Of a DNA stretch of 64,000 nucleotides, positions 13,753-35,810 are shown piece after piece; within the stretch, counting starts at the first letter, position 1, and the number at the start of each line of letters is the position of its first letter. The translations under genes were made by a program, and so were the position numbers. Source of the DNA: Streptomyces sp. RKAG293 (GTDB lineage Bacteria > Actinomycetota > Actinomycetes > Streptomycetales > Streptomycetaceae). The DNA lies in contig NZ_JAJOZB010000001.1 of assembly GCF_023701745.1 (NCBI RefSeq), positions 4,842,501 through 4,906,500 of the forward strand, given 5' to 3'. Below the pieces are notes generated by a model. It saw only the letters and a program-made list of their open reading frames with translations. It had not been told where the DNA came from and ran no database searches.

Positions 13753-14436
13753 ATGCCGATCTTCAAGCGCTTTCCGATGCTGACCACAGCGGTGTTCCTG
13801 AGTACTCTCGGGGTCGATGTCGTGCAGTTCTCGGCGCACGGAGTCCTCGAGGATCTGCAGCGGACCCCGGCCGGCCTGCACGGCGGCTGGTGGCGTACGG
13901 GCACCGCGCTCTTCGTTCAGGACGGCGGTATCTTCGGCGCGGTGACCAACCTGGTCTTCCTGCTGGTGATCGGCACGATCGCCGAGCAGACGCTGTCGAG
14001 GCCGCGCTGGCTCCTGCAGTACTTCGGGGTGGGCCTGGCCTCGGAGTTCGTCGGATACGCCTGGCAGCCGGTCGGCGGTGGCAACTCCATCGCGGTCTGC
14101 GGGCTGGCCGGTGCGGTCGCCTTGGCACTCTGGCAGGAGGACGCATCTCTGCCCGGATACACGGCGCAGGCGCTGCTGTTCTGGAGCGGAGCCCTGGTCG
14201 GCACCCTCTGGTCGAGCGGCTACCTCCTGTCGGCCCTCGTCTGTGTGGCCGGCTCGGTGCTGATCCGGATCTGCGCGGAGAACCGGGTGGCCGTCGGCCG
14301 GCCGACGGCCCTGGCTGTGGCCGCGGTCGGGGTCGGGTTGACCGCCGCCGAGAACATCCACGGTCCGGCGCTTCTCCTCGGTGGTATTTTCGCCGTGCTC
14401 CTGTCGGTCAAGGTGCACCAGCCGGGTGACGTCTGA
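13753..14436 (+). CDS. Rhomboid-like membrane protein
   Basis: The 227-aa protein shares its plan with the protein at 11791: WWRTGTALFVQDGGIFGAV, NLVFLLVIGTIAEQ, then a Ser motif GNSIAVCGLAGA and a late His in ENIHGPALLLGGIF. The Ser sits in GNSIA instead of the usual GxSGA. Its stop TGA shares one base with the ATG of the AfsR-like gene (TGATG at 14434-14438), so the two are translationally coupled. Confidence 0.6.
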   Translation: MPIFKRFPMLTTAVFLSTLGVDVVQFSAHGVLEDLQRTPAGLHGGWWRTGTALFVQDGGIFGAVTNLVFLLVIGTIAEQTLSRPRWLLQYFGVGLASEFVGYAWQPVGGGNSIAVCGLAGAVALALWQEDASLPGYTAQALLFWSGALVGTLWSSGYLLSALVCVAGSVLIRICAENRVAVGRPTALAVAAVGVGLTAAENIHGPALLLGGIFAVLLSVKVHQPGDV

Positions 14437-16523
14437 TGTGGGTCGCACTGCTGGGCCCGGTCAGGGTCCTGCGCGCCGACGGAACGCCGGTCAACGTCGG
14501 AGGTCCGCTGGTCCGAACGCTGCTGACCCTCCTCGCCGTGGAACCGGGAAGGACGGTCCCCGCCGACCAATTGGTCGACGCACTCTGGGGTGAACGGACT
14601 CCGGCGAACGCGGCCAACGCGCTGCAGACGCTGGTGAAACGGCTGCGCGCCGCCCTCGGCCCGGAGCTTCCGATCGTGGCGGGGGCTTCCGGTTACGCCC
14701 TGGCGATCGAGCCGGAGGACGTCGACGTCCAGCGCTTCACCCGGCTCGCCGCCCAGGGCCGAGTGTCCCTGCGGCGTGGCGACGCCAGCTCTGCGGCGGC
14801 CCTGCTCGACGAGGCGCTCGAACTCTGGCGCGGCCCCGCCCCGGCGGAGCTCCGGTTCCTCGAGGACCAGCGGCTCGACTCCGTGGAGGCCAGGGCGGAC
14901 GCCTACCTGGCTCTCGGCCGGGCCGCTGAGCTCGTCCGGGAACTCGCGGCGGCCGCCGCCGCGCAGCCGCTGCGCGAGTCCCTCGCGGCCCGGCTGATCC
15001 GGGCCCAGGCGGCGGCAGGGCTGCGATCCGAGGCGACAGAGACCTTCGAACGGACCCGGGACCTGCTCGCCGGGGAGCTGGGAGTCGATCCGTCGCCCGC
15101 TCTGGCCGAGGCCTTGCGGATCACGATGCTCCCCGTCGGTCCGCCGACCAATCTACGGAGCAGGCTGACCAGCTTCGTCGGGATGGACGCCGAGGTCGTC
15201 CGGACCGGTGCGCTGCTCGAGGCCACCCGGTTGGTCACCTTGGTGGGCCCTGGCGGAGTCGGAAAGACCCGGCTGGCCTGCGAGGCGGCGATCCGGCTGG
15301 CCGACCGCTGGCCCAGCGGGAGTTGGCTGGTCGAGCTCGCCCCGGTGGCCGACGGCGCGTCGGTGGGCAGTGCGATACTGTCGGCCCTCGGCGTCCGCGA
15401 CATCCTCGAAGGCGACCCGTCCGACCAGCTCGTGGCGGTGCTGACCGGCAAACGGTTGCTGCTCATCGTCGACAACTGCGAGCGCCTGCTGCAGGCGGTG
15501 GCCCCGCTGATCGACGGGATCCTCGCCCGCTGTCCTGAGCTGACGGTGCTCTGCACGAGCAGGGAACCCCTCGGGGTGGACGGCGAGATGCTCTGCCCGG
15601 TGCCGCCGCTGGCGCTTCCGCCGGCCGACGCCACCGTGGCCGAGGCGGCCGGCTTCCCGGCCGTACGGCTGCTCACCGACCGGGCCGTGGCCGTGCGGCC
15701 CGGCTTCGTCCTCGACAAGGACAACTGCGCGGACGTCTGCGCGATCTGCCGTCGGCTGGACGGTCTGCCGCTCGCCATCGAACTCGCCGCCGCCCGGCTG
15801 CGGGCGCTGAGCCCGGCTCAGATCGCGGCCCGGCTCGATGACCGGTTCCGGTTGCTGACCGGCGGCAGCCGGGCGGCGCTGCCCCGGCATCAGACCCTCC
15901 GCGCCGTCGTCGCCTGGAGCTGGGAGTCACTCACCGGCCCTGAGCGCGAACTCGCCCGCAGGCTCTCGGTCTTCTCCGGAACCGCGACCATGGACAGCGC
16001 CGAGCGGGTCTGCGGCGGCGACGTGCTCGAAACGCTCACTTCGCTGGTGGACAAGTCCCTGGTGGAGACCGACGGTGAGCGCTACTGGATGCTGGAGACG
16101 ATCAGGGCGTACGCCGCCGAGGAACTGGCGGCGGCGGGGGAGAGCACCGCGGTGGCGAGGACTCACGCCGACTACTTCCTGGACCTGGTGGAGCGAGCCG
16201 AACCCATGCTGCGCACCTCGGAACAGGCCGACTGGATCGCCCGGCTGATCGTCGAGAACGACAACTGCGTGGCGGCCCTCGACTGGGCGATCTCGGCCGG
16301 TGACGTCGAACGGTTGCTGAGGCTCTGCGGAGCGCTCGTCTGGTACTGGCTGCTCCGAGGGTGCCGTGCTGAGGCGGACCTGTGGCTCCACCGGGTCCTG
16401 GACCTGGTGGACGGAGGTCCTCCGCCTGCCCCGGCCGGGGTCTGCCCGAGCCGTTCGGCCCTGGCCCGGTTCCGTCAGGCCCAGGCCGAACTCGCCCGCG
16501 GCCAGGGCGACCTGAATCGCTGA
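14436..16523 (+). CDS. AfsR/SARP-type regulator with BTAD and NB-ARC domains, short C-terminus
   Basis: The 695-aa protein has an OmpR-like winged helix (residues about 1-90), a bacterial transcriptional activation domain (about 95-240), and an NB-ARC ATPase with Walker A LVGPGGVGKTRLACEAA, Walker B LLLIVDNCERLL and GLPLAIELAAARL. After about residue 610 only a short helical stretch precedes the stop. Relatives usually carry a long TPR tail, so the C-terminus seems to be lost. Such proteins bind DNA near promoters of secondary-metabolism genes. It is coupled to the upstream rhomboid-like gene. Confidence 0.82.
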   Translation: MWVALLGPVRVLRADGTPVNVGGPLVRTLLTLLAVEPGRTVPADQLVDALWGERTPANAANALQTLVKRLRAALGPELPIVAGASGYALAIEPEDVDVQRFTRLAAQGRVSLRRGDASSAAALLDEALELWRGPAPAELRFLEDQRLDSVEARADAYLALGRAAELVRELAAAAAAQPLRESLAARLIRAQAAAGLRSEATETFERTRDLLAGELGVDPSPALAEALRITMLPVGPPTNLRSRLTSFVGMDAEVVRTGALLEATRLVTLVGPGGVGKTRLACEAAIRLADRWPSGSWLVELAPVADGASVGSAILSALGVRDILEGDPSDQLVAVLTGKRLLLIVDNCERLLQAVAPLIDGILARCPELTVLCTSREPLGVDGEMLCPVPPLALPPADATVAEAAGFPAVRLLTDRAVAVRPGFVLDKDNCADVCAICRRLDGLPLAIELAAARLRALSPAQIAARLDDRFRLLTGGSRAALPRHQTLRAVVAWSWESLTGPERELARRLSVFSGTATMDSAERVCGGDVLETLTSLVDKSLVETDGERYWMLETIRAYAAEELAAAGESTAVARTHADYFLDLVERAEPMLRTSEQADWIARLIVENDNCVAALDWAISAGDVERLLRLCGALVWYWLLRGCRAEADLWLHRVLDLVDGGPPPAPAGVCPSRSALARFRQAQAELARGQGDLNR

Positions 16524-22460: not shown

Positions 22461-25347
22461 ATGTTCGCTTGTTGCTCGACCACTGATTTGAGGCTTGCCT
22501 TGCCCTACGCGATTCTCGGGCCGTTGGAGGTCCAGTCCTTCGGCCGACTCGTTGAAGTGGCCCGTCCGAGGCGACGTGCCGTACTCGCTTTTCTTCTCCT
22601 TCACGCCAATCGGTGGGTCAGCACCGAGCAACTGGTCGACGGGCTCTGGGGCGAGGAACCGCCGCGTACCGCCCGTGCCCAGATTCACACAGCGGTTTCA
22701 GCACTGCGCAGCGGGCTACCGGACGAGCTTGCCGGAGGGCTGTCCTCAGAGGGGTCCGGATACCGGCTGCGCGTGGCGGAGGGGGACCTTGACTCAGCGG
22801 AGTTCAGTCGACGGTTCACCGCCGCACGAGAGTTCGCCGAGAGCGGCGAGAAGGAGGAGGCGGCCCGGTTGTTGCGGTCCGGCCTGGGCCTCTGGCGTGG
22901 GGATGCGCTGACCGGGCTGGAGGCGCCCTTCGCGGGACCGGCCCGCGCTCGGTTGGAGGAAGAACGCTTCGTCGCATACGAACTGCTGGCAGACCTTGAG
23001 ATGAGCTTCGGAAGGCACCATGAGCTGCTTCCGGAGCTCACCAACCTGTTGAACCAGTACCCGGCCTGTGAGTCGATCGCGGAGCGCCTGACCGTGGCGC
23101 TCTACCGCAGTGGACGGCAGGCCGACGCTCTTGCGGTAGTGCGCAGGCTGCGCAGACTGCTAGCCGACGAGTACGGCCTGGACCTTGGGAAGCGCCTCGT
23201 GGAGCTTGAGGCTGCCATTCTGAGGGGTACCCTCCCGCCGCAGTCTTCGCCGCAGTCTTCGCCGCAACCGTCCGGGCCCGCTGTGCCAGTTCGGCCCGCC
23301 CCGGTGAGCGACAGCCTGGCCGACCGCGAGCTCCGAATTCATCGTCCTGCTCAGCTGCCCCGGGCGACAGCAGGATTCGTTGGGCGGGGTGCAGAGTTGG
23401 CCAAGCTCGGAATTCTGGTCGGCTCCGCACCGGGTGACACCGGCGTCGCGCTGATAAGTGGTCCGGCCGGGGTGGGCAAGACGTCGTTGGCGCTCCGATG
23501 GGCCCACTCCAGGGTCGGCGACTTCCCTGACGGTCAGCTGTTCGCAGATCTGCACGGCTACGATGCGGTGGACTCCGAGGTCCCCGGCCGGGTGCTGGAA
23601 CGGTTCCTGGTGGCGCTGGGCGTCCCCGGGTACGAAATCCCCGCCGACATGGCGCACCGCGAGGACATGTATCGCTCCCGGATGGCCAACCGCCGCATGT
23701 TGGTGGTCCTCGACAACGCACGGGACTACCAGCAGGTTTGGTCGCTTCTTCCCGGGACGGCACAGTGTCTCGCCCTCGTGACCAGTCGCGGAAAGATGGG
23801 CAGGCTGGTGACGGAGACAGGTGCCGTGTCCATCCCGCTCGGGCTGCTGACGCTGGAGGATTCAGTGGAGGCACTCGGTCAGATTGTCGGGGCTCCGCGG
23901 GTTGAGGCTGCCCCGGGTGCAGCCCGGGATCTGGCCCGGTTGTGCGGCGGTCTGCCGCTCGCTCTGCGGATTTCTGCGGTACGGCTGGTCGAGGAACCAA
24001 TGATCCCAGTAGCTGTGCTGGTAGCCGAGCTGACCCCGGAGGAGGGAAGGCTGGCCGGCCTGGGTCTGCCGGGTGAAGATCACACGGTGTCCCGGGCCCT
24101 GGATCACACGTATGCGCGGTTGACTGCGGAGCAGGCCCGGCTGTTCCGGGTGCTCAGCCTCCATCCCGGAGCGAGCTTGGGTTCCGCAGCCGCCGAGGCA
24201 GTCGCCGGGCGGCAGGAAACGCTTGGCGGGACATCTTCGGTGCTGGTGCGGCAGTCGCTTCGCGCGCTCGATGCGGTCCATCTGCTCGATCAGACGGAGC
24301 ACGACCGATATTCGATGCACGATTTGGTGCGGCTGTACAGCCGGAAGGTGGCGCCGTTGTCACCGGCCGAGGAGGAGCTAGCCATGGATCGGCTGTTCGA
24401 CTGGTACATCAGTGCCTCAGCCTCAGCTCACGAAGTCCTCACTCCCGGTGGCGCGAGGGTTGTACCGGATCTTAAGCATCTCTCGTCGGGTCTGTCGCCG
24501 TTCGAGGACCAGGACGAGGCGCTGCGCTGGTTCGACCAGGAGATAGAGGCTGTGGCGTCACTGATCCGGCTGGCCGTGGCGCGGCGTGATCACCGCGTGG
24601 TGTGGCAACTATCGTCCTCGATATCCACGTATCTGATGAGGCGCCACCGTCTCGATCTGCTGGTGGAAACCCAGCAGCTGGGTGAGCACGCGGCGCGAGA
24701 GGTTGGGATGGAGTTGGAGGCTGCGGCGATCGCCGCCAAACCTGGGAATCGCCTACTCCACGCGGCTCGATCCTCGGAGTGCGGACCCGTTCGAGCGGGC
24801 AATTGCGATCTCCGTCCGCCACGGTGAGACCCGGCGGGCTGCCGGAAATCGGCTCGATCTCGGGAATCACCAACTCAATCTCGGGCTGCTGGCCGAGACC
24901 GCACGTGTCGGCGTGGCGGCAGTGGAATCCGCGCGGGACCTCGACTACCGCTGCATGCCGGCATTGGCGTTGAGTAATCTCGGCCTGACCCGATCGAACT
25001 TGGGCGCCCACGAGCAGGCGCGTCCGTGGCCATCTGGTCCGGCCCCGGTGCGGCTCGGCGCGGGGGAGGACTGGCTTGCCCTCAGCCGTGAGGCGCTCGC
25101 CGGCGCCCGCCGTGCCGGCAATCCACTGCTGGTGGGCGAGATACCGGACCAGATCGGAATCACGTTCACCATGAGGGGCTCGATTGACGAGGCACGTGAT
25201 GCCTGGCGCGAGGCTGTGCAGGTGTTGTCGGAGGTCGGGAGTTCCACGGCGGACGAGGTGCGGGCCGAACTGCGAGGGGTCCCCGACTCGCTCCCCCGGC
25301 GCGCCGCAGACGATCAGGCGGACGTGGCGGAGTCGCCCAGCAGGTAG
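22461..25347 (+). pseudogene. AfsR/SARP-family regulator with a frameshift
   Basis: The first frame (22461-24827) encodes an OmpR-like DNA-binding domain (YAILGPLEVQSFGRLVEVAR), BTAD and an NB-ARC ATPase with Walker A ISGPAGVGKTSLALRWA and Walker B MLVVLDNARDY. At about 24735-24745 the TPR code shifts frame and continues to 25347 (NLGIAYSTRL, LGNHQLNLGLLAETARVG). One extra base near GCCAAACCTGGG explains it. The N-terminal 750 residues could still act as a DNA-binding activator, as many SARPs lack the tail. TTG 22488 or 22500 are alternative starts. It is the likely local regulator of locus 1, with which it converges. Confidence 0.75.
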
Positions 25348-25832
25348 ACCAGCTCGTCCCAGCCGATGGTGACGGCTCCCGCTATCGCCCCGGCACCCGC
25401 CGCAGCTCCCCACACGGGCAGGGTCTCGGCACCGCCGGGTAGCAGCCCGGCAGCCAACGCGGCGGCTGCGAGCAGTGCGTTGCGCGTCACGAATGCGGCG
25501 GTACTGCCCGTCCCTGGAGTGGTAGCCGAGCTGAAACAGCGGCAGGCAGCGGCCCGCCCCGCCTGGACAGTGGCCACCGTAAAGGCGACGAGGAGACCAA
25601 GCACGAGGGCGGCTCCCGCCTCCCGCAGGGTGAACAACAACAGCACCGCGGCGAGCTCGCTGATCACCACTCCGATCGCGGTGGGTGTTCGGAACCGGGC
25701 CGGGAGCCAGACGAAGTCGTCGAGCCCCGCCGTGAACCTGGTCATCGTCGCGCGGCTGCGGCACTTGCTGATCGCCGCGACAGCGAAGACCACGGCCAGC
25801 ATGACCCGGGCGGCCAGCTCGGTGACGGTCAT
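25314..25832 (-). CDS. MauE/DoxX-like membrane protein
   Basis: The 172-aa protein has about four membrane segments with AVVFAVAAISKCRSRATMTRF at the start and a cytosol-side or lumenal pair CRCFSSAT. MauE-type proteins assist disulfide formation or electron transfer to thioredoxin-like partners. In this locus it lies with a thioredoxin-like protein and a cysteine-rich peptide, which supports a role in oxidising or maintaining Cys residues. It overlaps the convergent AfsR-like frame by 34 bp. Confidence 0.75.
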   Translation of the reverse strand: MTVTELAARVMLAVVFAVAAISKCRSRATMTRFTAGLDDFVWLPARFRTPTAIGVVISELAAVLLLFTLREAGAALVLGLLVAFTVATVQAGRAAACRCFSSATTPGTGSTAAFVTRNALLAAAALAAGLLPGGAETLPVWGAAAGAGAIAGAVTIGWDELVYLLGDSATSA

Positions 25833-25935: not shown

Positions 25936-27756
25936 TCACCGGGGTTCCTCGGACAGCGCGTACTGGTATCCCTCGGCCTGGGCGGCGAAGAGTTCTGCGT
26001 ACTGGCCGCCGTGTTCGATCAGCTGCTCATGCCTGCCCTGTTCGACGACCTGCCCGCCGGCGAGCACTACGATGGTGTCGGCATCGCGGAGTGCCGAAAG
26101 GCGGTGGGAGATCAACAGACTGGTCCGTCCGGCGCGATGGCGGGCCAGGGCCTGGTGCACGCGCTGCTCGGCAAGCGGGTCGAGACCGGAACTCGGCTCA
26201 TCGAGGACCAGCAACTCGGCGTCCTCCCGAAACAGCGAGCGGGCCAGTGCGACCCGCTGCCACTGGCCGCCGGAGAGCAGCACCCCCTTCTCGTTCGAGG
26301 CGTCCAGGAAGATCCGGCTGAGCATGGTGTCGTATCCTCGGGGCAATCCGGCGATTGTCTCGTCGATGTCGGCTCGAGCCGCGGCGGTGCGAACCCGTTC
26401 GAGGTCATCCATCAGCTCCGGCGAGCCGATGCCGATGTTGTCCCGGGCGTTCATGTCGTACGTCATGTAGTCCTGAAAGGTGGCCCCGATCCGGCGGCGG
26501 AGTTCGTCCACCGACAGAGTTCGGATGTCCTGCCCGTCCCACAGGATTCGCCCGCGTTCGGGATCGTAGAAGCGGCACAGCAGTTTGACGAGGGTGCTCT
26601 TGCCCGCGCCGTTGGCACCCACCAGCCCGACTGCCTGTCCATACGGCAGGATGAGATCGAGGCCTCGCAGCACCCACGGGTCGTCAGGTTTGTAGCGGAA
26701 CCACACGCCATCGAACTCGATGCCTTGGCGCAGTGCACGCGGCACCAGCTCGCCGCTGGGCAGATCGGCGGGCATCCGCAGCAAAGTGAGGTAGCGGGCA
26801 AACAGCTGGAGTGCCTCGTCTGTGCGGCCCAGCTGCATCAGCACGGAGGAAAGTGCCCCCTGGATCGCTGCCACCGCTGCGGTGAAGAGGGTCATCTCAC
26901 CTAGGGTGACGCCTCCTCGTAGCACCTGCCGGGCTATGACGACCCCGGCGACCCCGGCGACCGCGGCGCCGAGCACGGCCAGGGCCGACTGGACGGCGGC
27001 GTCGCGCCGGGTGACCGCCAGGGTGGCGGCACTGGTCTGTCGCAGGTTGTCCATCGCCCGGCGATGGATCAACGGGCCGGCGCCGAACAGTCGCACCTCC
27101 ATGACCGCCCGACGGTCCGTCAGCAGCGCCCGGTAGAAGAACTGGCGCCGTGCGGTGGCCATCATGGACTTCGTGGTGTCGGCCTGCTGCCGCGCCAGCC
27201 GCAGTTGACCCGCGACCGAGACCGCGACAGTGCCTACCAGCAAGAGCCCCATCGGCGGCCAGAGCGCAAGGACGGCGCCCAGGAACCCCGCGACGGTAAT
27301 ACTGCTGCGTACGGTGGCCAGCAGAAAGTCGAGCACCTGGCGGGGAGCATTCTGTGCGGACTGCTCGGCAAGCCTGATGGTGTCCTGAGTCTCCGGGTCC
27401 TCGAAAGGCCGGAGGCTGCGGAAGTCGTTGATACGGCGGTACAGGAGGTCTTGTGCCCTGAGGTTGACGGCCTGCCCTGTCGTGGCCGTTGTCAGGGCGG
27501 AGACCGAACTGAGGACAGCGGACAGGCCGGCGAGCGCAGCAACGCCCGCCGCCAGAAGGCTTACCCGGCCGCTCTCCGCGCCGGGCGCGGCCAGATCGTC
27601 GACCAGCAGCTTGCCGAGGTAGGCGGCCCCCGCAGGGACGGCACCGGAGAGCAAAGCCAGCAAAAGCTGGCCGACCATTCCCATCGGGGCGGCATGCCAG
27701 CCCAGCTGGAGTGCTCGGCCCGTGACTCGCAGACGGGCCGCCGCCCGCGAGGTCAC
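25936..27756 (-). CDS. ABC exporter with fused membrane and ATPase domains
   Basis: The 606-aa protein starts at GTG 27756, overlapping the stop of the thioredoxin-like gene (GTGA). Residues 1-330 form a six-helix exporter domain. Residues about 350-590 form an ATPase with Walker A GLVGANGAGKSTL, Q-loop TFQDYMTYDM, signature LLSGGQWQRVALARS and Walker B ELLVLDEPSSGLD. It lacks the C39 peptidase domain of bacteriocin exporters, so leader removal must come from other enzymes, such as the S26 or M50 proteases nearby. It most likely exports the mature peptide of locus 1. Confidence 0.88.
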   Translation of the reverse strand: MTSRAAARLRVTGRALQLGWHAAPMGMVGQLLLALLSGAVPAGAAYLGKLLVDDLAAPGAESGRVSLLAAGVAALAGLSAVLSSVSALTTATTGQAVNLRAQDLLYRRINDFRSLRPFEDPETQDTIRLAEQSAQNAPRQVLDFLLATVRSSITVAGFLGAVLALWPPMGLLLVGTVAVSVAGQLRLARQQADTTKSMMATARRQFFYRALLTDRRAVMEVRLFGAGPLIHRRAMDNLRQTSAATLAVTRRDAAVQSALAVLGAAVAGVAGVVIARQVLRGGVTLGEMTLFTAAVAAIQGALSSVLMQLGRTDEALQLFARYLTLLRMPADLPSGELVPRALRQGIEFDGVWFRYKPDDPWVLRGLDLILPYGQAVGLVGANGAGKSTLVKLLCRFYDPERGRILWDGQDIRTLSVDELRRRIGATFQDYMTYDMNARDNIGIGSPELMDDLERVRTAAARADIDETIAGLPRGYDTMLSRIFLDASNEKGVLLSGGQWQRVALARSLFREDAELLVLDEPSSGLDPLAEQRVHQALARHRAGRTSLLISHRLSALRDADTIVVLAGGQVVEQGRHEQLIEHGGQYAELFAAQAEGYQYALSEEPR

Positions 27757-28313
27757 ACGGTCTCCCTGGACCGCACCGGCCGGCCCTCCGGGAGCGACAG
27801 TCCCACGCCGTCGAGAGTGTGACCGGCGTGGGTGACCACCCCATCACGCAGCCTGAGCAGAGTGGGGTAGGAGGCGACATTCCCGAACGCGGCGGCGACC
27901 TCCGTCTCGTCCGCCAGCACGGCGACCTCCCCTACCGCACTGAGCTTGGCCGCGATCACCTCCGAGCCCGCCTCACCGACGACGAAGAAGAGTGGCTCGG
28001 TGCCGCCGGTGCGCAGCAAGCCGCCGTCACCGTCGAGTGATTCGATCAACTGGGCACACGGACCGCAGCCCACCATCACGAAGCCCACGAATCGCTCACC
28101 GGCCGCGACGTCAGTTCTGGCGACCGGTCGGCCGGTGACGGTCTCGGCGCGGAACTCGCCTACCGACAGGCCTACGGGCGGCAGCTTCCTACCGCCTTCG
28201 CCCGAGCCGGCCTCGATGTCCTTCACCCGGCGGATGACGGCGAAGGTGAGAGAGAGGTTGAGCGCTGTGGCGATCCCGAGGACCGCGGCGAGCACGCACA
28301 ACGTGACAAGCAT
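27753..28313 (-). CDS. Membrane-anchored thioredoxin-like protein
   Basis: The 186-aa protein has one N-terminal membrane helix (LVTLCVLAAVLGIATALNLS) and a TlpA/thioredoxin-like domain with the redox motif CGPC (FVMVGCGPCAQLIESL) and the cis-Pro region ASYPTLLRLRDG. It should face outside the membrane and act as a thiol oxidoreductase. It is first in the minus-strand operon with the ABC exporter and the MauE-like protein. Together with the eight-Cys peptide across the divergent promoter, this points to disulfide handling during export. Confidence 0.85.
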   Translation of the reverse strand: MLVTLCVLAAVLGIATALNLSLTFAVIRRVKDIEAGSGEGGRKLPPVGLSVGEFRAETVTGRPVARTDVAAGERFVGFVMVGCGPCAQLIESLDGDGGLLRTGGTEPLFFVVGEAGSEVIAAKLSAVGEVAVLADETEVAAAFGNVASYPTLLRLRDGVVTHAGHTLDGVGLSLPEGRPVRSRETV

Positions 28314-28787: not shown

Positions 28788-29294
28788 ATGATTGAACCTC
28801 CCGTACCCATGAATCTCATCATCTCCATATCCATTGCATTCCTTGCGCTTCTCGCTGCGGCACGTTGCATGATATTTCTCGTCATCGTGCGAGGTCGGAG
28901 CATGGAGCCCCAGTACTACGACGGGGATCGCGTACTGGCCGTCAAGGGCGGGCTTTTCGGCCGCCCGAAAGTGCACGACGTGGTCGTCGTGAGGCGCTCG
29001 GGCGGTGGAGACCGTGGTCGCACCCCTGGACTGTTCATCAAAAACGTCGTGGCCGCACCGGGCGATCGGGTGCCCGAGCTCTTCGTCGGTGTCACCGGCG
29101 CCGCCGCAGGTGACAGCACCCCCGAAGGCCGATACCTGGTGCTGGGCCGCCATCGGGCCAGCGAGGACTCCAAGCAGTGGGGCTACGTGGCGGGCGCCGA
29201 AATCGTCGGCAAAGTGCTGCGCCCGCGAGCCGGACAGGCTGTCGGCTCCGCGCGGCCGCAAAACCGTCCCGCAGATTTCCGTCGCGAGGCCTGA
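28788..29294 (+). CDS. S26-family signal peptidase
   Basis: The 168-aa protein has one N-terminal membrane helix (IISISIAFLALLAAARCMIF) and the type I signal-peptidase core. The catalytic Ser is S38 in RGRSMEPQYYDGD, and the catalytic Lys is K85 in FIKNVVAAPGD. A final motif includes YLVLGRH. Signal peptidases cut after small-x-small motifs. The next gene encodes a peptide with ASA just before its Cys-rich part, an attractive substrate. ATG 28809 is an alternative start. It opens the plus-strand operon of locus 1. Confidence 0.85.
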   Translation: MIEPPVPMNLIISISIAFLALLAAARCMIFLVIVRGRSMEPQYYDGDRVLAVKGGLFGRPKVHDVVVVRRSGGGDRGRTPGLFIKNVVAAPGDRVPELFVGVTGAAAGDSTPEGRYLVLGRHRASEDSKQWGYVAGAEIVGKVLRPRAGQAVGSARPQNRPADFRREA

Positions 29295-29358
29295 TGCAAT
29301 TTCAGCGCCTTAAGCAACGGGATACATAGATCCGTTACCAACCCTGAAGGAAGCAGCA

Positions 29359-29526
29359 ATGACCCGCAACCTCGGCGACCGAATTCTGACCGCCATGATC
29401 GGCCGGAAGACTGCCTCGGCCGGCTGTGCTCCCGACTGCGAGAGGATTCCCTGCCGCTACGGCAACCAGTTCTGCTACAAGACGTGCTGCTTCACGCCTA
29501 ACTGTGGCTATTCCTGCAGCAACTAG
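29359..29526 (+). CDS. 55-aa cysteine-rich precursor peptide (eight Cys)
   Basis: ATG 29359 lies seven bases after GAAGGA. The product starts MTRNLGDRILTAMIGRKTAS. Its second half has Cys at 23, 27, 32, 39, 43, 44, 49 and 53, including a CC pair, with Tyr, Pro and Asn between them. Cleavage after ASA (residues 19-21) would release a 34-aa core with eight Cys, enough for four disulfides. The leader has no hydrophobic core, so normal Sec targeting is doubtful. The context of signal peptidase, ThiF enzyme, M50 protease, thioredoxin-like protein and ABC exporter marks it as a RiPP-like precursor. I do not recognise a known family. Confidence 0.82.
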   Translation: MTRNLGDRILTAMIGRKTASAGCAPDCERIPCRYGNQFCYKTCCFTPNCGYSCSN

Positions 29527-29560
29527 ACCTGCCGACCGAACCACAATCGAGAGGATGAAC

Positions 29561-29686
29561 ATGTCTGACGAGAACTCGTGCACCGAGATCATCGAGGTGC
29601 CGGCAGGGGATGCCGCTGCCGATCTGATCGAGATCCGGCTGCTCGACAGGATCGAGACGATCCGTGTGAAGGCTTCCTCGGGCTGA
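29561..29686 (+). CDS. 41-aa acidic peptide ending in SSG
   Basis: ATG 29561 follows GAGAGG by six bases. The product begins MSDENSCTEIIEVPAGD, continues with an acidic Leu/Ile-rich stretch (LIEIRLLDRIETIRV) and ends KASSG. It has a single Cys. Because E1/ThiF enzymes activate the C-terminal carboxylate of a protein or peptide, often Gly, this peptide is a plausible substrate or carrier for the ThiF enzyme encoded next. It could equally be a second precursor. It is 34 bp after the Cys-rich peptide gene. Confidence 0.72.
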   Translation: MSDENSCTEIIEVPAGDAAADLIEIRLLDRIETIRVKASSG

Positions 29687-29704
29687 TGTCCCACCACTGA
29701 AGGC

Positions 29705-29738
29705 GCCGGCGGGGCAGGATTCAACCCGCCCCGCCGGC
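29705..29738 (+). terminator. Hairpin between peptide genes and enzyme genes
   Basis: GCCGGCGGGGC (29705-29715) and GCCCCGCCGGC (29728-29738) are exact inverted repeats with a 12-nt loop. It sits after the peptide gene and before the ribosome site of the ThiF gene. It probably acts as a partial terminator or mRNA stabiliser, giving more peptide than enzyme. Confidence 0.65.
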
Positions 29739-29761
29739 CCCACCTACGAGGAGCCAGCGCC

Positions 29762-30838
29762 ATGAAAAACCCAATGGTGAAAGAAGAGCATCTTCCCTAC
29801 CGGCATGAGGACGGCACGGTCCGCATCGGAGGCGAGCTCTACGGGTTGGCCGCCGCTATCCGTGATCCACACGGGTGGATCTGGGCCTCACTCACCCTGA
29901 TGGACGGTCGGCACACCGAACCGGAGATCGCCGAACTGCTCCGTCTTCAGTACCCCGCCCTGACGCCGGAGACCGCTGCCGGACTGGTCGCGCAGCTCAT
30001 TGCCACTGGCTACTGCGAGGACGCCGCTGCCCGCATTCCGGAGGAACTCAGCGCTCACGAAATGGCGAAGTACAGCCGAAACCAGGCATTCTTCCGACGT
30101 GTCGGCCTGAATCAGGAACAGGGGCCCTGGGACGCCCACATCGCCCTGAGTAGATCGCGGGTCCTCATCCTCGGACTCGGCGGCACGGGAAGCCACGCGG
30201 CCTGGTCGCTCGCCGCTGCTGGCGTCGGCCACATCCACTGTGTGGACGGCGACACGGTGGAACTCAGCAATCTGACCAGGCAGGCGCTATACACGGAGGC
30301 CGACCTCGACCGCGCGAAAGCCGAGGTCGCGGCGGAAAAGCTCCGTGGTGTGAACTCCGCTGCCGAGGTCACCTTCGACCTCGGCAGGGTGGAGACCCAG
30401 GAGCAGCTGGCGCACCTGCTTGCAGGGTATGACGTGCTCGCCCTCTGCGCGGACGAACCCGACTCGGAAACGATCCGTGGCTGGGCCTCGGCCGCCTGTG
30501 CCGAGGCCCGCATCCCATGGGTCGGAGGTGGATACAACGGCCCGCTGGTGACCGTTGGCGTCTTCGGCCCGGACGGTCCCTGTTTCCAGTGCCTTGCCGC
30601 GGGCGAGGAGGCCCTGATCCCGCCAGGATCGACCCCACCCCATCTGGGTGGTCCGGGAGTGATCGCCCCGTCCGCCGCGATCTCCGGCCACTTGGTCGCC
30701 TACGAGACCATCGCACTGCTCACGGGGATCTCACGAAACCCGCCGGGGTACGTGCGCGGACTCAATCTCATCTCCCCGGACGATCACGTCCACGTACGGC
30801 ATCCGGCTCTGCCGGAGTGCGGAAACTGCAACGCATAG
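29762..30838 (+). CDS. E1/ThiF-like adenylating enzyme with PqqD-like N-terminus
   Basis: The 358-aa protein has an N-terminal domain (about residues 8-95, HEDGTVRIGGELYG...LLRLQYPALTPETAAGLVAQL) like PqqD/RRE peptide-binding folds. An E1 Rossmann domain follows, with the ATP motif GLGGTG (138-143), acidic VDGDTVELSNLTRQ and KAEVAAEKL. Four Cys form a zinc site: C274/C277 (CFQC) and C353/C356 (CGNC). Related enzymes such as MccB and PaaA activate RiPP precursors as acyl-adenylates. GAGGAG precedes ATG 29762. It is probably the central modifying enzyme of locus 1. Confidence 0.85.
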   Translation: MKNPMVKEEHLPYRHEDGTVRIGGELYGLAAAIRDPHGWIWASLTLMDGRHTEPEIAELLRLQYPALTPETAAGLVAQLIATGYCEDAAARIPEELSAHEMAKYSRNQAFFRRVGLNQEQGPWDAHIALSRSRVLILGLGGTGSHAAWSLAAAGVGHIHCVDGDTVELSNLTRQALYTEADLDRAKAEVAAEKLRGVNSAAEVTFDLGRVETQEQLAHLLAGYDVLALCADEPDSETIRGWASAACAEARIPWVGGGYNGPLVTVGVFGPDGPCFQCLAAGEEALIPPGSTPPHLGGPGVIAPSAAISGHLVAYETIALLTGISRNPPGYVRGLNLISPDDHVHVRHPALPECGNCNA

Positions 30839-30858
30839 GGTCTTCGAAGACAGGACAC

Positions 30859-32163
30859 ATGGCGGACACCGAAGCACACTGTGTCGTATTCCATCCTCTG
30901 GGATTCCGGGCTGACGGCCGCCACTGGATCGTCGGACGGAGCGACACCGGACCGTATGTGACGGTCCCCCAGGAGGGTATGGCGGCCATCCGGCTGCTCA
31001 AGGACGGCATGTCGCCTCCCGAAGTGCAGCAGCGAATGCTGAACGAATCGGGGAAGAGCATTGACGTCGAACAGTTCGTCAGGTCCATGGCCGCGCTCGG
31101 ATTCATCCGCTCCATGGACGGGCACGGCATCGACTCCCCGCCGGCCGCGCGCCCGACGCTTCCGCGCGTTCGACCCGGGCATGTCCGGTGGATGCTCAGC
31201 CCCGTTCTCCACGGGGTGCTCGTCACGGTTGCCCTGACCGGTCTGATCATGATGGCAGCCAGACCCGAGCTGCGCCCCCACTGGGGCGATCTGCTCTGGA
31301 GTGATCACGGAAGTCCGGCCCTGCTGGGGGACGCGGCCCTGACCTGGCTGCTGATCCTCTTTCATGAACTCGCCCACCTGTTCACCGCCAGGGCAGCGGA
31401 CGTTCCCGGCGTCATCAGGATGGGCACGCGTCTTCAGTTCCTCGTGGTTCAGACGGATGTCTCAGGGGTCTGGCTACGCGAAAGGCCGACCCGGATCGCG
31501 GTGTATCTCTCCGGCATGATGCTGGATCTCACTGTGTTCGGCGGTTGCATCCTCCTGGAGGCGGCAACCGGCTCCAGCCGACTTCTTTCGGTCGTGGCTG
31601 TCACGGAACTCGGCGCAGTCGCAGCTGAGTTCATGGTCTTCATGCGGACTGACCTCTACTTCCTGCTGCAGGACCTGCTCGGCTGCCGCAACCTGTACCG
31701 CGATGCCCTGCAGTACTGCCAGCACGTCCTGACCAGGTGCCTCGGCCGGGCGACGTCCTCGCCACTCTCCGGACTGGACCGCGTCGAGCGGCGCAGCGTG
31801 CGCACCTACGCAGTGCTCATGGCCATCGGTTCCGCCGCGTGCGTGCTACTGGTCTTTCTGGGCTGGACGAACGTGACGCTGGTGCTGCTGGCGCACTCGG
31901 CCGACGAATTCCTCACCGCGCCGAACTGGCTCTCAGTCGCGGACGCGCTGGCAACGACATTGATGCTGATAGGGGTCCAGGCGCTGTGGGCCAACGCATG
32001 GTGGCGCAGGCACGGCACCGCTGTCCGGAACAGCTGGAGGCCGTCCGGGCGGCCCCGGCGGCGAGGCAAACATGACGGTATCCCACTTCCCACTGGGCAT
32101 CCGACTCACAACCCGGAAGGCCCCGAGGGCTCGTGGCAGCCCCGGGTCTCCGAAGGCAGCTGA
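30859..32163 (+). CDS. M50-family metalloprotease with PqqD-like N-terminus
   Basis: The 434-aa protein has a soluble N-terminal domain (residues about 10-85) that resembles PqqD/RRE domains, then six or more membrane helices. The zinc motif HELAH (residues 169-173) lies in a helix, and a later Asp in RTDLYFLLQDLLG fits the third ligand of site-2 proteases. M50 enzymes cut within membranes or remove leaders. Here a role in precursor cleavage, immunity or signalling is inferred from its place directly after the ThiF gene. ATG 30859 was chosen for the short gap. Confidence 0.8.
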   Translation: MADTEAHCVVFHPLGFRADGRHWIVGRSDTGPYVTVPQEGMAAIRLLKDGMSPPEVQQRMLNESGKSIDVEQFVRSMAALGFIRSMDGHGIDSPPAARPTLPRVRPGHVRWMLSPVLHGVLVTVALTGLIMMAARPELRPHWGDLLWSDHGSPALLGDAALTWLLILFHELAHLFTARAADVPGVIRMGTRLQFLVVQTDVSGVWLRERPTRIAVYLSGMMLDLTVFGGCILLEAATGSSRLLSVVAVTELGAVAAEFMVFMRTDLYFLLQDLLGCRNLYRDALQYCQHVLTRCLGRATSSPLSGLDRVERRSVRTYAVLMAIGSAACVLLVFLGWTNVTLVLLAHSADEFLTAPNWLSVADALATTLMLIGVQALWANAWWRRHGTAVRNSWRPSGRPRRRGKHDGIPLPTGHPTHNPEGPEGSWQPRVSEGS

Positions 32164-32279: not shown

Positions 32280-32820
32280 TGGACAGCCTGATACTGGGAC
32301 GGATGGTCCCGGAGAAAGCAGCCAACCGCCTTGCTCCAGCAGCCATCGCAGGGCCTCGCCCGGCCCGGTCGCTGCTGCGGACAGCGCGCCGGCGTTCAAA
32401 GGCCGGTAGGCGATGAACGGGACTTCGTGCGCCCGGCCGTAGTCGACCGCAGGATCATCCGGCTCGTCGCGGTTGAACGCGTTCTGCACGGCCGCGACCT
32501 GGATCTCGGCCGACCCGTACGGATCTGCTCCACGTCGACCTTGGACACGCCGATGTGGCCGATCTTCCCCTCCTCTTGGAGCAGGCGAAGCGCACCGACT
32601 TGCTCGGCGAGGGGTACCGCGGGGTCTATGCGGTGGAGGGAGCACAGTTCCGGGCGCCCGACCGCGAGGCGGCGCAGGCCGGCCTCGACGGCGGCGCGCA
32701 GGTACTCCGGCCGGCCCAGGGGCACCCAATGGTCGGGGCCGGGGCGTATCACGCCGAACTTCGTGGCGATCAGCACGTGCGGCGGGTAAGGGCGCAGCGC
32801 TTGGAACTGCTGGTGGAGCT
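32280..32820 (-). pseudogene. Aldo-keto reductase pseudogene
   Basis: One minus-strand frame reads ALRPYPPHVLIATKFGV, PLGRPEYLRAAVEAGLRRL and LLQEEGKIGHIGVSKVDVEQ. At about 32515 the code changes frame and continues EIQVAAVQNAFNRDEPD, EVPFIAYRPLNAG and ALRWLLEQGG. This is the second half of an aldo-keto reductase with a frameshift. The N-terminal barrel with the catalytic Tyr is missing. Longer frames on the plus strand are its antisense shadow. Confidence 0.75.
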
Positions 32821-33104
32821 GACCACTCCGGTCCAGCGCCAGTTCTTCGGCTGGGTGTGGTCCCGGGCCCGCCATATCCACGCGGATCGCCGGGCCTTTG
32901 ACGCGACCGTCGCCCGCCTCGCCGGCGAGCCCACCCCGGCGTAGGGCCGGCCGGTCAACATCGCGGCGAGCGGGTAGTCCCGGGAGCGCGGGTGGCGCAT
33001 CTGACCCTCGCTCACGTTTGGCGATACGTGCGACCGGAACGGGTTCTTCGGGTGCAAAGACCTCTGACGGTTCCGACGGACCGGCTCCCGGACGCGGGGC
33101 GAGG

Positions 33105-34382: not shown

Positions 34383-34465
34383 TCCCAGGCAAGGCCGGCC
34401 GTGGGACGGGACGTAGGGCCAGTCCTGGCAGAGCCGGATGAAAATCCCCGGTGAGGAGGACTGTG

Positions 34466-35521
34466 ATGGAACGCGTACGCCTTCGGCAGAGGGTCATGAA
34501 GTTCATCGATGGTGACCGTATAAAGCTCATCATGCGGGATCGGGGGATCTCCTTGCCGGACAGTCCGGCGAATCGCCGGGTTGTCGCGCAGCTGGCAGAA
34601 GGCGCCAGTAGACGTGAGGTTCTTGATGGATCCTCTGGAATCTCTGCCGAGGACCTAGAATCCGCCCTTGGAGCCCTGGATGGAATCAGGGCACTGGAAC
34701 GGTTGGATGTTCCGCACGATTTCACGGATGCCGATCTGGAGCGGAACTCCCGTACGGTCGAGTTTCTTTCGGCGGAAGAGAATGGCCGCGGGAATCGATT
34801 CGAGATGCAGGCCCGCGTCCGCGACGCCCGGGTCCTGCTGATCGGCACCGGTGGCCTCGGCAGCTGGATCGCCTACGGCCTGGCCGCAGCCGGGGTGGGT
34901 TCGCTCCGGCTGGTCGACCCCGACGTGGTGTCCCTGTCCAACCTCAACCGCTCGATCCTCTACGACGAGGAGACGGTGGGGCGGTCCAAGGCCGAAGTGG
35001 CACGCGAGCGCCTGACGGCTTTCGCGCCCAGGCTGCGGGTGGAGTGCTGCCTTGAGTACGTCACGGCGCCCGATGACGTTGCCCGTCTCGCCGAGGGCTG
35101 TGACCTGATCATCAACGTGGCGGATCAGCCCCACCGCACGATCCGGCGGTGGGTCGCTGCGGGCGCCCTGTTGGGCGGCGTTCCGGTTCTGGAGGCCGGT
35201 GGCGGCCGGGTCGGACCGTTCTTCCTTCCCGGTGTGTCCAGCTGCAGCGGCTGCCTCCAGGCATCCCAGGCGGAGCCCGGCAGCCCGCGCGACGTCCTCA
35301 TGGAGCAGGACAACGTTTTCCCGGGCCGTTCCGCAGGGTCTCTCGTCGCCTATCCGGCCGCCGAGGCGGGCGTCATTGTCCTGGAGGCGTACCGCTTCCT
35401 GTCGGGAATGGCGGAGCCGGCCACCAGGAACGCCTACCTCGCCGAAGGAAAGAGCTTCTTCGATGGCAAGCGCATTGAGCTTCCTCGCCACCCGCGCTGT
35501 CGCGTGTGTGCCGAGAGATGA
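34466..35521 (+). CDS. E1/ThiF-like adenylating enzyme
   Basis: The 351-aa enzyme starts at ATG 34466, six bases after GAGGAGG. An N-terminal winged-helix-like part (residues 1-115) precedes the E1 domain with ATP motif GTGGLG (127-132), LVDPDVVSLSNLNRS and KAEVARERL. Zinc-site Cys are C260/C263 (CSGC) and C345/C348 (CRVC). It is related in plan to, but clearly different from, the locus 1 enzyme. The two 20-aa peptides follow directly, so they are its likely substrates, by analogy with MccB (microcin C7) and PaaA (pantocin A). Confidence 0.86.
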   Translation: MERVRLRQRVMKFIDGDRIKLIMRDRGISLPDSPANRRVVAQLAEGASRREVLDGSSGISAEDLESALGALDGIRALERLDVPHDFTDADLERNSRTVEFLSAEENGRGNRFEMQARVRDARVLLIGTGGLGSWIAYGLAAAGVGSLRLVDPDVVSLSNLNRSILYDEETVGRSKAEVARERLTAFAPRLRVECCLEYVTAPDDVARLAEGCDLIINVADQPHRTIRRWVAAGALLGGVPVLEAGGGRVGPFFLPGVSSCSGCLQASQAEPGSPRDVLMEQDNVFPGRSAGSLVAYPAAEAGVIVLEAYRFLSGMAEPATRNAYLAEGKSFFDGKRIELPRHPRCRVCAER

Positions 35522-35579
35522 ACTTCCGGAGGGCGTCGGCCTTCCGGAGAGAATTCATAAGGGCAGGAGGTGTTTCAGC

Positions 35580-35642
35580 ATGGAGATCGTCGAGGTCGTG
35601 GCCGAGGAGTTCGAGGCCCTCAACAACATGGAGTACGCGTAA
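35580..35642 (+). CDS. 20-aa precursor peptide, copy 1
   Basis: ATG 35580 lies downstream of AGGAGGTG. The peptide is MEIVEVVAEEFEALNNMEYA: very acidic, no Cys, with an EE pair and an NN pair. A near-identical gene lies 124 bp downstream with the same ribosome site. Being duplicated, translated from strong sites and placed behind a ThiF enzyme, it looks like a RiPP precursor or a carrier peptide. Canonical microcin C precursors end in Asn, and this one ends Tyr-Ala. Confidence 0.72.
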   Translation: MEIVEVVAEEFEALNNMEYA

Positions 35643-35703
35643 TTCGATGGGGTGCTGCCCTTGAGAATTTCTGCACCGATATGGCGGGAGGAGGTGTTTC
35701 AGC

Positions 35704-35766
35704 ATGGAGATCGTCGAGATCATGGCCGAGGAGTTCGAGGCCCTCAACAACGTTGAGTACGCGTAA
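35704..35766 (+). CDS. 20-aa precursor peptide, copy 2
   Basis: ATG 35704 lies downstream of GGAGGAGGTG. The peptide MEIVEIMAEEFEALNNVEYA differs from copy 1 at only three positions (V6I, V7M, M17V), all conservative. Selection on the peptide is suggested because the changes keep charge, the EE and NN pairs and the YA end. A large hairpin at 35811-35849 follows it. Confidence 0.72.
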   Translation: MEIVEIMAEEFEALNNVEYA

Positions 35767-35810
35767 TGCGAAGGGGCACCGCCCCTGAAAATCACCGCTC
35801 GATGTGATGT

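Follow-up and report, generated by a model that had tools for sequence, protein, structure and literature searches.

We analysed a 64,000-nt window of the 9.27-Mb genome of Streptomyces sp. RKAG293, a member of the Streptomycetaceae (contig NZ_JAJOZB010000001.1, positions 4,842,501 to 4,906,500). Within this window, five genes follow one another on one strand in an operon-like row, separated by gaps of 64, 34, 75 and 20 nt. They encode an S26 signal-peptidase-like protease, a 55-aa peptide with eight Cys residues (the Cys peptide), a 41-aa peptide (the LD peptide), a ThiF-like enzyme and an M50-type protease. Genes for a thioredoxin-like protein, an ATP-binding cassette (ABC) exporter and a MauE-like protein are divergent from this row. 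The original prediction, made from the DNA letters, had read this locus as a new system for a ribosomally synthesized and post-translationally modified peptide (RiPP), with the ThiF enzyme assigned to the Cys peptide. The features are as follows, in window coordinates; RRE denotes a RiPP recognition element and SARP a Streptomyces antibiotic regulatory protein.

22461..24827, plus strand: SARP-type regulator, 788 aa (Trans_reg_C, BTAD and NB-ARC domains; PF03704 E 9e-35, PF00931 E 2e-7)
25314..25832, minus strand: MauE-like membrane protein with a CxC motif, presumed partner in disulfide formation (PF07291 E 1e-16)
25936..27756, minus strand: ABC exporter, permease plus ATPase (profile matches; C39 peptidase domain not reported)
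27753..28313, minus strand: membrane-anchored thioredoxin-like protein (CGPC; CxxC at residue 83)
28788..29294, plus strand: S26 signal-peptidase-like protease (TIGR02227, 69.6 bits against a cut-off of 47)
29359..29526, plus strand: 55-aa precursor of a disulfide-rich peptide, 8 Cys (KTASA/GC; alignment of relatives)
29422..29523, plus strand: predicted mature core GCAPDCERIPCRYGNQFCYKTCCFTPNCGYSCSN, 34 aa (from the conserved AxA site)
29561..29686, plus strand: 41-aa LD peptide, predicted substrate of ThiF and M50 (alignment; adjoins ThiF in relatives)
29660..29683, plus strand: LD-peptide tail IRVKASSG, with Lys five from the C-terminus (tail alignment)
29762..30838, plus strand: ThiF-like adenylyltransferase with a putative N-terminal RRE (PF00899 E 7e-45; PaaA-like_N E 3e-4)
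30859 (ATG)..32163, plus strand: M50-type intramembrane metalloprotease with a putative N-terminal RRE (HELAH at 169-173; RTDLYFLLQDL conserved)

Every gene that the original prediction named lies where it had been placed, and the same holds for the eight-Cys peptide with its ASA motif directly after the S26 gene, the 34-residue core that follows this motif and the divergent thioredoxin-like, exporter and MauE genes. Domain calls were firm for S26, ThiF, ABC and MauE. The S26 protein carries its catalytic Ser and Lys motifs as GRSMEP and KNVVAAPGD. Although the Pfam match of the M50 protein was weak, its identity is settled by the HELAH motif and the structure model.

We gathered ThiF-M50 pairs by whole-genome searches, a contig scan with the ThiF alignment and plasmid records, and measured co-occurrence in 395 genomes of the family, counting ThiF and LD peptide as neighbours within 2 kb. 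An LD peptide adjoined 49 of 64 ThiF places (chance expectation ~0.004) and, likewise, ThiF adjoined 54 of 60 LD-peptide places, whereas the Cys peptide was present at only 7 of the 64 ThiF places. These co-occurrence counts show that the ThiF-M50 pair belongs with the LD peptide. Since the LD peptide is the constant companion of ThiF while the Cys peptide seldom is, the 41-aa peptide is very likely the ThiF substrate. On this basis ThiF, M50 and the LD peptide, marked by the motif IEIRxLDxIET, constitute one module (module 2).

Dozens of loci in Streptomyces, Microbispora, Microtetraspora, Nonomuraea and Nocardia carry ThiF, M50 and the LD peptide without a Cys peptide. The contig scan reached Streptomyces, Microbispora, Herbidospora, Planotetraspora, Nonomuraea, Microtetraspora and other genera, and plasmid records, including that of a Nocardia plasmid, also hold ThiF-M50 pairs. 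Three arrangements are found repeatedly. In Streptomyces and the genus of the window, ThiF-M50 comes with an LD peptide and an M14 carboxypeptidase that are both divergent; in Streptosporangiaceae the order is ThiF-LD-DUF6879, with M50 present or absent; and the window's own clade has LD-ThiF-M50 with a SARP regulator. In about 28 loci (L116, L135, L144 and others in Streptosporangiaceae), DUF6879 proteins adjoin the LD peptide and ThiF, and this context may give a clue to what DUF6879 does. On a plasmid of Streptomyces sp. NBC_00464 (L108:10250-10440), two LD peptides of 23 and 25 aa lie downstream of M50, and their tails hold two Cys each (AQSCPRCA and AVCHEDVPCS).

Relatives of the Cys peptide came to light only with a profile, as a single-sequence search with the 55-aa peptide gave no significant relative in 35 genomes of its genus. 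A profile from the alignment of ten Cys peptides, which share an amphipathic leader, an invariant AxA and a C..C...CC...C...C core, detected relatives in many genomes (best E 3e-24), often with six Cys in place of the eight in the window; a PDB search with the same profile returned no relative. Among 22 strong Cys-peptide places in the family sample, 8 lay within 12 kb of ThiF and 14 were without it. Most of the ThiF-free loci that we fetched contain the ABC and S26 genes, usually with the thioredoxin-like or MauE gene as well; one locus (L227) has none of the four. Exporter homologues adjoin Cys peptides elsewhere at 40-72% identity, the MauE-like gene is found together with the Cys peptide in other loci too, and the thioredoxin-like CxxC is kept in relatives as CGPC or CPSC. 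The closest relative of the window's export genes, in genome G154 (ABC 72%, thioredoxin 63%, MauE 58% and S26 56% identical), has no ThiF, M50 or LD peptide adjoining them, while in G142 they lie beside a ThiF match that covers residues 12-130 only, with no M50. Judged by this gene content, the Cys peptide, thioredoxin-like protein, MauE, ABC exporter and S26 protease form a second module (module 1) that is separable from ThiF and is widespread in the Streptomycetaceae, mostly without it. Two Cys-peptide clusters, L079 and L217, hold two different Cys precursors.

From gene content and knowledge of the protein families, we infer that the ABC transporter exports the 55-aa precursor, that the dedicated S26 peptidase, which is predicted to cleave the AxA leader, removes the amphipathic leader at ASA/G, and that the thioredoxin-like/MauE pair makes the disulfides. 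The predicted core GCAPDCERIPCRYGNQFCYKTCCFTPNCGYSCSN with four disulfides has a computed monoisotopic mass of 3794.41 Da.

Structure models were examined for both enzymes of module 2, using alignments without rows from plasmid records. The AlphaFold model of ThiF (pLDDT 92) matches MccB with a TM score of up to 0.79 and also matches PaaA, and the sequence profile likewise gives MccB (E 6e-48) and PaaA as the best solved relatives. Because the E1 catalytic and Zn residues are kept (GxGGxG, R173, K186, D231 and the Zn pair C274/C277 show no variation, and C353/C356 almost none), ThiF is expected to be active as an adenylyltransferase. The membrane part of the M50 model (pLDDT 87) matches SpoIVFB (Z 8.7), and residues 7-88 align with lasso B1:leader complexes over 79 residues (Z 10.7, rmsd 2.1); the M50 N-terminus thus models as a leader-binding domain (RRE). 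The N-terminal domain of each model is a winged helix, and the two agree in topology; this bears out the PqqD-like domains first proposed for the two enzymes. As hhalign aligned these domains in register (E 0.0096) with a probability of only 4%, the case for a shared RRE lies mainly in the structure models.

In a tree of 100 ThiF rows (FastTree, Shimodaira-Hasegawa support, no bootstrap), the window enzyme fell within a monophyletic clade of 16 loci with support of 99. Relatives of the Cys peptide do lie beside ThiF genes in other genomes, as the original prediction implied, namely in nine further loci of this clade, so that 10 of the 16 loci, the window included, contain one. In four others (L076, L077, L113 and L141) the flank that we fetched contains no Cys peptide, and for the remaining two the contig is too short to judge. 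The LD tail that follows IET in this clade is eight residues long and has Lys five from the C-terminus in 16/16 rows, which hold 12 distinct tails. The two residues preceding the Lys and the four that follow it vary, as in IDSKAVAR; the C-terminal residue may be G, N, S, T or R. Invariance of the Lys at -5 amid variable neighbours suggests ring closure. Near-identical tails occur with and without module 1 (QNKQIDT or QNKQIDS versus QSKQIDS; DSKAISR versus ETKAVSR), which speaks for a ThiF chemistry that is independent of the Cys peptide.

Taken together, we consider it probable, on the comparative sequence evidence, that the locus unites two peptide systems, with ThiF and M50 processing the LD peptide and module 1 making the Cys peptide. 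Much of the RiPP system as first proposed stands, including the conserved locus, the disulfide-rich peptide, the S26 site, the export and oxidation genes and the RRE-ThiF/RRE-M50 pair; what finds no support is that ThiF belongs to the Cys peptide. In module 2, the RREs of ThiF and M50 would bind the conserved IEIRxLDxIET, after which ThiF would adenylate a carboxylate in the short tail, most likely the C-terminal one because that residue varies. In the window clade the invariant Lys may then attack the activated C-terminus to give a five-residue lactam, and the M50 protease would free the tail. Known ThiF RiPP enzymes adenylate a carboxylate, which a nucleophile then attacks (PMC12150305), and in light of that chemistry C-terminal activation followed by attack of the Lys amine is the simplest reading.

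Several observations weigh against this account. The LD peptide went undetected at 15 of the 64 ThiF places, some of which are contig ends or divergent sequences. LD tails of other clades lack such a Lys (GDSNSNGT, for example), and the group that is activated could be the invariant Glu of IET rather than the C-terminus. Finally, module 1 recurs beside the window's ThiF clade in three genera, at 7 places versus 0.01 expected. Since ThiF and the Cys peptide are neighbours far above chance, a functional link between the two modules is likely, and a direct action of ThiF on the Cys peptide keeps a small probability. On the two-module reading, the ThiF-made peptide is probably a separate product or signal alongside the Cys peptide.

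What this peptide does can be read in more than one way. It is possible, if less than probable, that the LD product is a secreted antibiotic, either a microcin C-like nucleotide peptide or a cyclic peptide, and that the locus yields two independent products. MccB is the nearest fold to ThiF, and Asn is the last residue of many LD peptides in other clades. However, no dedicated exporter was recognised beside most ThiF-M50 pairs, the C-terminal residue is unconserved in the window clade, and no MccE- or MccF-type gene occurs among the annotated neighbours.

We entertain as a tentative proposal that the LD product is a peptide signal that is modified by ThiF and freed by an Eep-like M50 protease, is perhaps taken up again through Opp, and switches on the Cys-peptide cluster via the SARP. 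In Firmicutes, the M50 protease Eep frees pheromones that are sensed by TPR-type regulators. With ThiF loci as the only comparison, a SARP gene lies nearby in 16/16 loci of the window clade and rarely in other clades, and Opp importer genes adjoin several Streptomyces loci; together with pheromone release by M50 elsewhere, this makes a signal role attractive. Full-length relatives of the SARP carry NB-ARC and TPR domains, but the window SARP is without an in-frame TPR region and its close relative in G154 is a short SARP. A weak TPR-like stretch at 24682-25347 (E 1e-3) continues the window SARP gene in another frame, and the gene seems frameshifted, either by sequencing error or in a decayed regulator. 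Moreover, the Opp genes may do no more than mark a chromosomal or insertion site that the loci share, no Opp gene appears among the window genes inspected, and SARPs are in any case frequent in antibiotic clusters. A signal role and a second antibiotic product are equally plausible. The SARP query also matched a second SARP-like regulator in the window (14436-15572).

In its most specific form the signal would be a cyclic peptide, closed from the Lys side chain to the C-terminus by ThiF and released by M50, that acts with the SARP to control the disulfide-rich secreted peptide. We regard this full sequence of events as unlikely; if true, it would constitute a new modified-peptide signalling circuit in actinomycetes whose components come from a widespread, undescribed family of RRE-ThiF, RRE-M50 and LD peptide.

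We find it quite improbable that ThiF modifies the eight-Cys peptide itself, for example at its C-terminal Asn as MccB does on MccA, with the 41-aa peptide serving as an in-trans helper or leader. The two lie in the same operon, their union is conserved in ten clade loci and the window Cys peptide does end in Asn, but the C-termini of its relatives vary (V, C, A, P, I, S, G and others). The original assignment of ThiF to the Cys peptide gives way because, as counted above, most strong Cys-peptide places are without ThiF and ThiF-M50 nearly always accompanies homologues of the 41-aa peptide. MccB-like modification of a C-terminal Asn in the Cys peptide was rejected as a candidate because the residue is unconserved in the alignment. 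That the adjacency arose by chance, or that the small ORFs are not genes, is scarcely credible: although neither small peptide matched any curated family (Pfam, NCBIfam), they have relatives with conserved motifs in many genomes, two Streptomyces copies of the Cys peptide differ synonymously at 11 codons versus 1 non-synonymous change, and co-occurrence is far above chance.

Two further features lie downstream of the M50 gene. A short ORF beside the cluster (32396-32881) matches only part of the aldo/keto reductase family PF00248 and is possibly a gene remnant. The region 34451-35800 contains a second, unrelated ThiF-like gene (34451-35521), then two near-identical 20-aa ORFs, MEIVEVVAEEFEALNNMEYA and MEIVEIMAEEFEALNNVEYA, followed by a hydrolase, a TPR protein and a major facilitator superfamily (MFS) exporter; it resembles a small ThiF RiPP cluster in its own right. 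This second ThiF-like gene had no relative at E 1e-40 in 34 other genomes of the genus.

We found no publication on the LD/ThiF/M50 family or on its union with module 1 in a search that left most subscription papers outside its reach. The papers retrieved for MauE with signal peptidases, for ThiF with either S26 or M50 and for the motifs of the peptides do not describe the family, and reviews and primary papers on ThiF RiPPs cover microcin C, pantocin, GRC, enterofaecin and IndF. The LD peptide, RRE-ThiF and RRE-M50 thus apparently represent an undescribed actinomycete RiPP family that extends from Streptomyces to Streptosporangiaceae and Nocardia. Correct pairing of enzyme and peptide directs mass-spectrometry tests to the relevant molecule, and the invariant Lys at -5 yields a specific chemical prediction. 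The union with a disulfide-rich module also raises the question whether one modified peptide controls the production of another.

Among known systems, module 1 most resembles the decRiPPter MauE candidate families (Kloosterman et al. 2020, PMC7794033), which likewise come from Streptomyces and combine MauE (in one family also MauD) with a precursor of at least eight Cys, and for which a role in precursor modification was proposed. In the window, too, MauE and a precursor with at least eight Cys share one cluster. The text of that paper names no ThiF or S26, and the likeness lies at the level of gene content and Cys count. Module 1 was in this sense anticipated, though it is uncharacterised. 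The new class joining ThiF to a disulfide-rich peptide that was originally envisaged is accordingly qualified (PMC7794033): the union is real, but it is better read as two joined modules, of which the MauE/eight-Cys part had a precedent.

For module 2, MccB of microcin C7, the best structural match, has an RRE and an E1 adenylyltransferase as the window ThiF does. In contrast to MccA, which has 7 residues and an essential Asn end, the LD peptide has a leader of ~33 aa and a variable C-terminus, and is accompanied by M50 and a SARP; the window precursor is 41 aa long and ends in G. PaaA of pantocin A has the same RRE-E1 architecture (PF21475 E 3e-4, below its cut-off; 5ff5 matched over 3-228), but the Glu-Glu-Asn core of pantocin A is absent from the LD tails (IRVKASSG, IDSKAVAR) and no partner oxygenase was seen. 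GrcB (thiolactone), EnfB (enterofaecin) and IndF (indolylamide) are ThiF-like enzymes that make a ring near the peptide C-terminus (PMC12250964, PMC12150305); their substrates, however, are Firmicute peptides with other tails, and IndF partners with an M16 protease. GRC also requires radical S-adenosylmethionine (SAM) enzymes and a C-terminal Cys, whereas radical SAM had no match in the window (the nearest lies ~300 kb away) and the window LD tail has no Cys. A YcaO cyclodehydratase, as in azole RiPPs, is likewise absent from the cluster, all matches in the genome lying ~3 Mb away. RRE domains, the mark of RRE-dependent RiPP pathways, appear on the models of both ThiF and M50. Lastly, EpeP, TglG/TmoG (PMC10885120) and the daptide protease NF041824, to which the window M50 has a weak profile match, are membrane M50 proteases that free a ribosomal-peptide product, as proposed here; unlike them, the window M50 has an RRE of its own, as modelled, and a ThiF partner.

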